Of a stretch of 47,773 nucleotides of DNA, positions 31,258-32,190 are shown one piece after another. The first letter of the stretch is position 1; the number at the start of each line of letters is the position of its first letter. Source of the DNA: Methanomicrobiales archaeon HGW-Methanomicrobiales-6. Its GTDB lineage: Archaea > Halobacteriota > Methanomicrobia > Methanomicrobiales > Methanoculleaceae. A program made the translations under genes and the position numbers. The stretch lies in contig PGYH01000005.1 in assembly GCA_002839575.1 (NCBI GenBank), positions 1 through 47,773 of the forward strand, written 5' to 3'. The notes beneath the pieces are model-generated. The model was not told the origin of the DNA, made no database searches, and saw only the letters and a program-made list of their open reading frames with translations.

Positions 31258-32190
31258 ATGTCTTATCTCACCGTCGGTAAAGAGAACTCAGGCACCATCG
31301 ACCTCTACTACGAGGACCACGGTGCAGGGCGACCTGTCGTCCTGATTCACGGCTGGCCGCTATCGAGCAAGTCCTGGGAGAAGCAGGTGCCGGCGCTGCT
31401 CGACGCGGGTTACCGCGTCGTCACCTACGATCGCAGGGGGTTTGGCAACTCCAGCAAACCGACCTTCGGCTACGACTACGACACCCTGGCCGAAGACCTG
31501 CACAGGCTCATGACCGAGCTCGACCTCGCCGACGCCACACTGGTGGGGTTCTCGATGGGCGGCGGCGAGGTGGCCCGCTACCTCGGCACCCACGGCAGCG
31601 ATCGCGTGGGGTTCTCGATGGGCGGCGGCGAGGTGGCCCGCTACCTCGGCACCCACGGCAGCGATCGCGTGGAGCAGGCCGTCTTCATATCCGCGATCCC
31701 GCCGTTCCTGCTCAAAACGTCTGACAACCCCGAAGGCGTGGACGGCAGTGTCTTTGACGGGATCATGGAGAGCATCAGTGCCGACCGACCGGCGTTCCTC
31801 ACCGGGTTTTTCTCGGACTTCTATAACGTCGACATCTTCGGGGGCGACCTCGTCAGCGACGAGGTGATCCGCTTCAGCTGGAACATTGCTGCCGCCGCCT
31901 CTCCGAGAGGCACGCTTGACTGTGTCCCTGCGTGGCTGACCGACTTCCGGGACGATCTTATAAGCATCGACGTGCCGGTTCTCGTGATCCACGGCGACGC
32001 CGACCGGATCGTCCCCTTCGCCGCCTCAGGGAAGCGCACCCACGAGCTGGTCAGGGGGAGCCGTCTCGTGGTAGTCGAGGGCGGGCCGCACGGGATAACC
32101 TGGACCCACGCCGGGAGAGTCAACCGGGAACTGCTGGACTTTCTTAAAGAGCAGGCTGAGCCCCTGGAGCCGGTTGTCGGACTCTCATGA
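31258..32190 (+). CDS. Alpha/beta hydrolase (non-heme haloperoxidase/esterase group) with internal 21-residue duplication
   Basis: A 310-residue cytosolic hydrolase. HGWPLSSKSWEKQ holds the oxyanion region, and VTYDRRGFGNSSKP is typical of the non-heme chloroperoxidase/arylesterase group (usually about 275-280 residues). The nucleophile elbow GFSMGG occurs twice, with Ser99 and Ser120, because 63 bases are repeated exactly in tandem. The acid is Asp247 or Asp249 (HGDADRIVPF) and the base His278 (GGPHGITW). Without the duplication the protein would be 289 residues. The extra 21 residues (elbow plus helix C) would have to be looped out or the fold is disturbed, so activity is uncertain. Haloperoxidase names for this family are historical; an ester or peracid reaction is more likely. 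Confidence 0.9.
   Translation: MSYLTVGKENSGTIDLYYEDHGAGRPVVLIHGWPLSSKSWEKQVPALLDAGYRVVTYDRRGFGNSSKPTFGYDYDTLAEDLHRLMTELDLADATLVGFSMGGGEVARYLGTHGSDRVGFSMGGGEVARYLGTHGSDRVEQAVFISAIPPFLLKTSDNPEGVDGSVFDGIMESISADRPAFLTGFFSDFYNVDIFGGDLVSDEVIRFSWNIAAAASPRGTLDCVPAWLTDFRDDLISIDVPVLVIHGDADRIVPFAASGKRTHELVRGSRLVVVEGGPHGITWTHAGRVNRELLDFLKEQAEPLEPVVGLS
31543..31668 (+). repeat. Perfect 2 x 63-bp in-frame tandem duplication
   Basis: Bases 31543-31605 are repeated without a difference at 31606-31668. The unit encodes VGFSMGGGEVARYLGTHGSDR, the nucleophile elbow and following helix of the hydrolase. Absence of any mismatch means a very recent event or an assembly artefact. Confidence 0.95.

Follow-up and report, generated by a model that had tools for sequence, protein, structure and literature searches.

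A perfect 63-bp tandem repeat in an archaeal hydrolase gene is very probably an untrimmed contig overlap

A hydrolase gene with two nucleophile elbows

The 2.55-Mb draft genome of a Methanoculleus-type archaeon (205 contigs, 87.6% complete) carries a gene for an alpha/beta hydrolase in which one segment is written twice. We analyzed this gene within a window of 47,773 nucleotides, by which we mean the whole stretch of DNA under study. The features of the locus are as follows.

31258..32190, plus strand: alpha/beta hydrolase gene of the non-haem haloperoxidase/arylesterase type, 310 aa as assembled, about 289 aa in relatives
31543..31605, plus strand: first 63-bp unit, with elbow Ser99 (by sequence identity)
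31606..31668, plus strand: second, identical 63-bp unit, with elbow Ser120 (by sequence identity)
31669..31672, plus strand: GTGG, a 4-bp match to the unit start, junction microhomology (by repeat comparison)

The first-pass annotation had described a perfect 63-bp duplication that places two elbows in one frame, and both observations were confirmed. The units lie head to tail and are 100% identical, with no base difference between the copies, and the frame stays open over 310 aa with GFSMGGGE at both Ser99 and Ser120. Since GTGG adds 4 nt past the second unit, the period-63 match runs over 67 consecutive bases. This was the only perfect tandem repeat with a period of at least 15 in the 47.8-kb window, and chance composition cannot account for an exact tandem repeat of 63 bp.

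The window protein matched Pfam PF00561 (Abhydrolase_1) with an E value of 3.1e-39, and its nearest known structures were non-haem bromo- and chloroperoxidases together with arylesterases (e.g., PDB 3fob, 1a7u, 1bro, and 1va4). Each alignment with these structures split into two segments of the window protein (residues 1-117 and 117-298), using the single elbow of the known protein twice. In the alignment of homologues, Ser120 (and its copy Ser99), Asp249, and His278 were invariant as the triad, and the elbow conformed to GxSxG. Similarity to this family is thus full-length on either side of the repeat and extends to the GFSMGGGE elbow, Asp249, and His278, whereas the 21 extra residues set the window protein apart, as do its two elbows, which occurred in no examined relative. 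By similarity, the protein belongs to the non-haem haloperoxidase/arylesterase type of alpha/beta hydrolases, with a putative perhydrolase/haloperoxidase or esterase activity.

A single copy in the relatives

The closest named homologues came from Methanoculleus and Methanomicrobiales genomes, with hydrolase identities of 80-88% among genus mates over the main match. A single elbow and a single 63-bp unit were found in all 21 congeneric loci with an intact gene, and none of 80 wider homologues carried two GFSxGGGE elbows. In DNA alignments, the left part ended near position 31609 and the right part started near 31605, and the two shared about 67-68 bp of the relative's sequence, so that the relative has one copy. 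Compared with the relatives, one of the two units is in excess, and either could be the excess one. Furthermore, the order of the flanking genes on both sides was conserved in relatives, and identity was similar to the left and right of the site. This continuity across the site indicates that the join itself is correct and that the excess is only 63 bp. The true gene most likely encodes an ordinary hydrolase, about 289 residues long, that has a single nucleophile elbow.

These comparisons bear directly on a recombinational on/off switch, the last of three options offered by the first-pass annotation, in which an active one-copy allele and an inactive two-copy allele would alternate in the population. 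Exact direct repeats are able to recombine, and this general property speaks for such a switch, although nothing at this locus specifically supports it. The two-copy state occurred in no relative, so that the 21 congeneric loci showed no variation in copy number. Moreover, the extra copy keeps the frame, which typical phase-variation repeats do not. We consider a switch extremely improbable.

Duplicated contig overlaps in the same assembly

We also scanned another 140 contig pieces from this genome, amounting to about 1.75 Mb of non-N sequence out of 2.55 Mb. Among the contig termini, 24 pairs shared an exact overlap. These overlaps ranged from 27 to 79 bp (median, 65.5) and measured exactly 63 bp in one pair and 64 bp in another, so that the length of the hydrolase unit falls in the middle of the distribution of contig overlaps in this assembly. 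True adjacency in relatives was checked for two of these pairs. The ends of the 63-bp pair, which lie inside a gene that we take from our reading of the sequence to be dnaK, mapped with an overlap of 61-63 bp in five of five congeners, while those of the 79-bp pair overlapped by 71-80 bp in four congeners. Both pairs are therefore adjacent single-copy pieces that should have merged. A constant k-mer overlap was also considered, but overlaps varying from 27 to 79 bp do not point to a single k, and we name no assembler.

The following duplicates lie within contigs of the same genome.

L156:8963-9055 (contig C46): scaffold join in a glutamine synthetase gene, 45 bp-NNN-45 bp, the overlap standing on either side of 3 N
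L229:12275-12395 (contig C119): scaffold join in an ABC-transporter ATPase gene, 57 bp-NNNNNNN-57 bp, the overlap standing on either side of 7 N
L176:18217-18346 (contig C66): perfect 65-bp head-to-tail duplicate without N, in an MgtE-like transporter gene

At the glutamine synthetase join, congeners were exactly 48 bp shorter (653 versus 701 bp), and the 57-bp unit of the ABC ATPase was present once in congeners. The 65-bp duplicate shifts the frame of the MgtE-like gene and was single in 10 of 10 congeners; it is probably a further assembly artefact and is the closest sister of the 63-bp repeat in the window. Untrimmed overlaps thus do occur in this assembly. As a control, homologue loci of other genomes, 0.6 Mb in total, contained no perfect tandem duplication with a period of 30-250, a sample that is by itself too small for significance.

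Other repeats were seen in the course of the scan. A 38-bp perfect tandem duplicate at L248:1471-1546 (contig C138), apparently intergenic and near a transposase-like ORF, may be real or an artefact. A long CRISPR-like array occupies L152:14588-19500 (contig C42), with a repeat of about GTCGCACCCTTCGCGGGTGCGTGGATTGAAAT and a period of about 66 bp. Coding repeats with a 24-bp period at L169:1-1050, L175:8892-9060, and L243:7528-7740 represent natural low complexity, exemplified by PTPTVNVT, part of a fasciclin-like surface protein, and by EVTTEVTP, and scaffold gaps fall there too. The repeats in L169, L175, L243, and L231 were left uncounted as artefacts, their sequence being naturally repetitive.

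Origin of the repeat and its meaning

The explanation that we favor, and hold to be very probably correct, is that the 63-bp tandem copy is an assembly artefact, an untrimmed contig overlap at a join, and not a real feature of the genome. Two neighboring contigs would have broken within the hydrolase gene, the last 63 bases of one being the first 63 of the other, and joining them without collapsing this overlap would have written the 63 bp twice. We infer such a join for the hydrolase because the same assembly leaves overlaps of 27-79 bp in duplicate elsewhere (dnaK, glutamine synthetase, ABC ATPase, and MgtE-like transporter). The copies lack any base difference, as an overlap requires, which is consistent with an artefact. 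Among the three options of the first-pass annotation, assembly error is accordingly the one that gained support, from the duplicated overlaps in the same assembly, whereas no relative supports either the very young duplication or the switch.

Comparable errors have been described as duplicated overlapping contigs (Kelley and Salzberg 2010, PMC2864568), in which the ends of neighboring contigs share sequence and both copies are kept, and as tandem-insertion mis-assemblies of bacterial genomes (Phillippy et al. 2008, PMC2397507). The likeness lies in the same sequence at neighboring contig ends being kept twice, giving a false duplication. The present genome shows the features of duplicated overlapping contigs: contig ends of neighbors share sequence of this length, the overlap is kept twice at joins of the same assembly (L156, L229, and L176), and the true sequence, as judged by the 21 of 21 congeneric loci with an intact gene, has one copy. 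The cases in these two reports were mainly longer and driven by haplotypes or repeats, whereas those found here are exact, span 27-79 bp, and come from a draft archaeal genome. A further difference from both classes is that no N was left at the join in the window.

This N-free junction between the units counts against an artefact and in favor of a genuine, very recent tandem duplication in the sequenced strain, arising by slippage or through the GTGG microhomology and probably harming or inactivating the hydrolase. The 4-bp GTGG present at both unit ends is the main argument on this side, because at least 4 extra matching bases were obtained in only about 3% of 63-bp duplications simulated in the window; it favors a real microhomology-mediated event by perhaps about tenfold on our own estimate, and the assembly evidence weighs more. 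The preserved frame, a one-in-three chance, is a weak argument on the same side. We also considered whether a hairpin within the unit might have caused slippage or the contig break, but its fold was not clearly better than that of shuffled sequences (z, -0.93). Against a real duplication, it was seen in no congener, its length falls within the size class of the contig overlaps left untrimmed in the assembly, and the sister 65-bp duplicate breaks the frame of a gene present in all 10 congeners examined. In an AlphaFold2 model built from 15 sequences, one copy (residues 100-119) formed a disordered insert with a pLDDT of about 30, located between strand 93-98 and helix 122-133; this too argues against a real duplication, although its placement is partly dictated by the alignment gap and is not strong evidence. 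A genuine duplication is therefore very improbable in our view. The fuller proposal, that the elbow was genuinely duplicated in frame very recently, creating two candidate catalytic serines in a state that could revert by recombination between the repeats, is likewise very improbable. If the duplication were nonetheless true, loss of function would be expected, because the nucleophile would leave its normal tight elbow.

As an untrimmed contig overlap, the 63-bp repeat is almost certainly unremarkable and adds nothing to what is known of the enzyme. The same genome holds more false duplicates that alter conserved genes, namely those for glutamine synthetase, the ABC ATPase, and, probably, the MgtE-like transporter. 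Perfect two-copy tandem repeats of about 40-80 bp within genes of draft genomes should therefore first be compared with the lengths of contig-end overlaps in the same assembly, a cheap check that worked here without reads.
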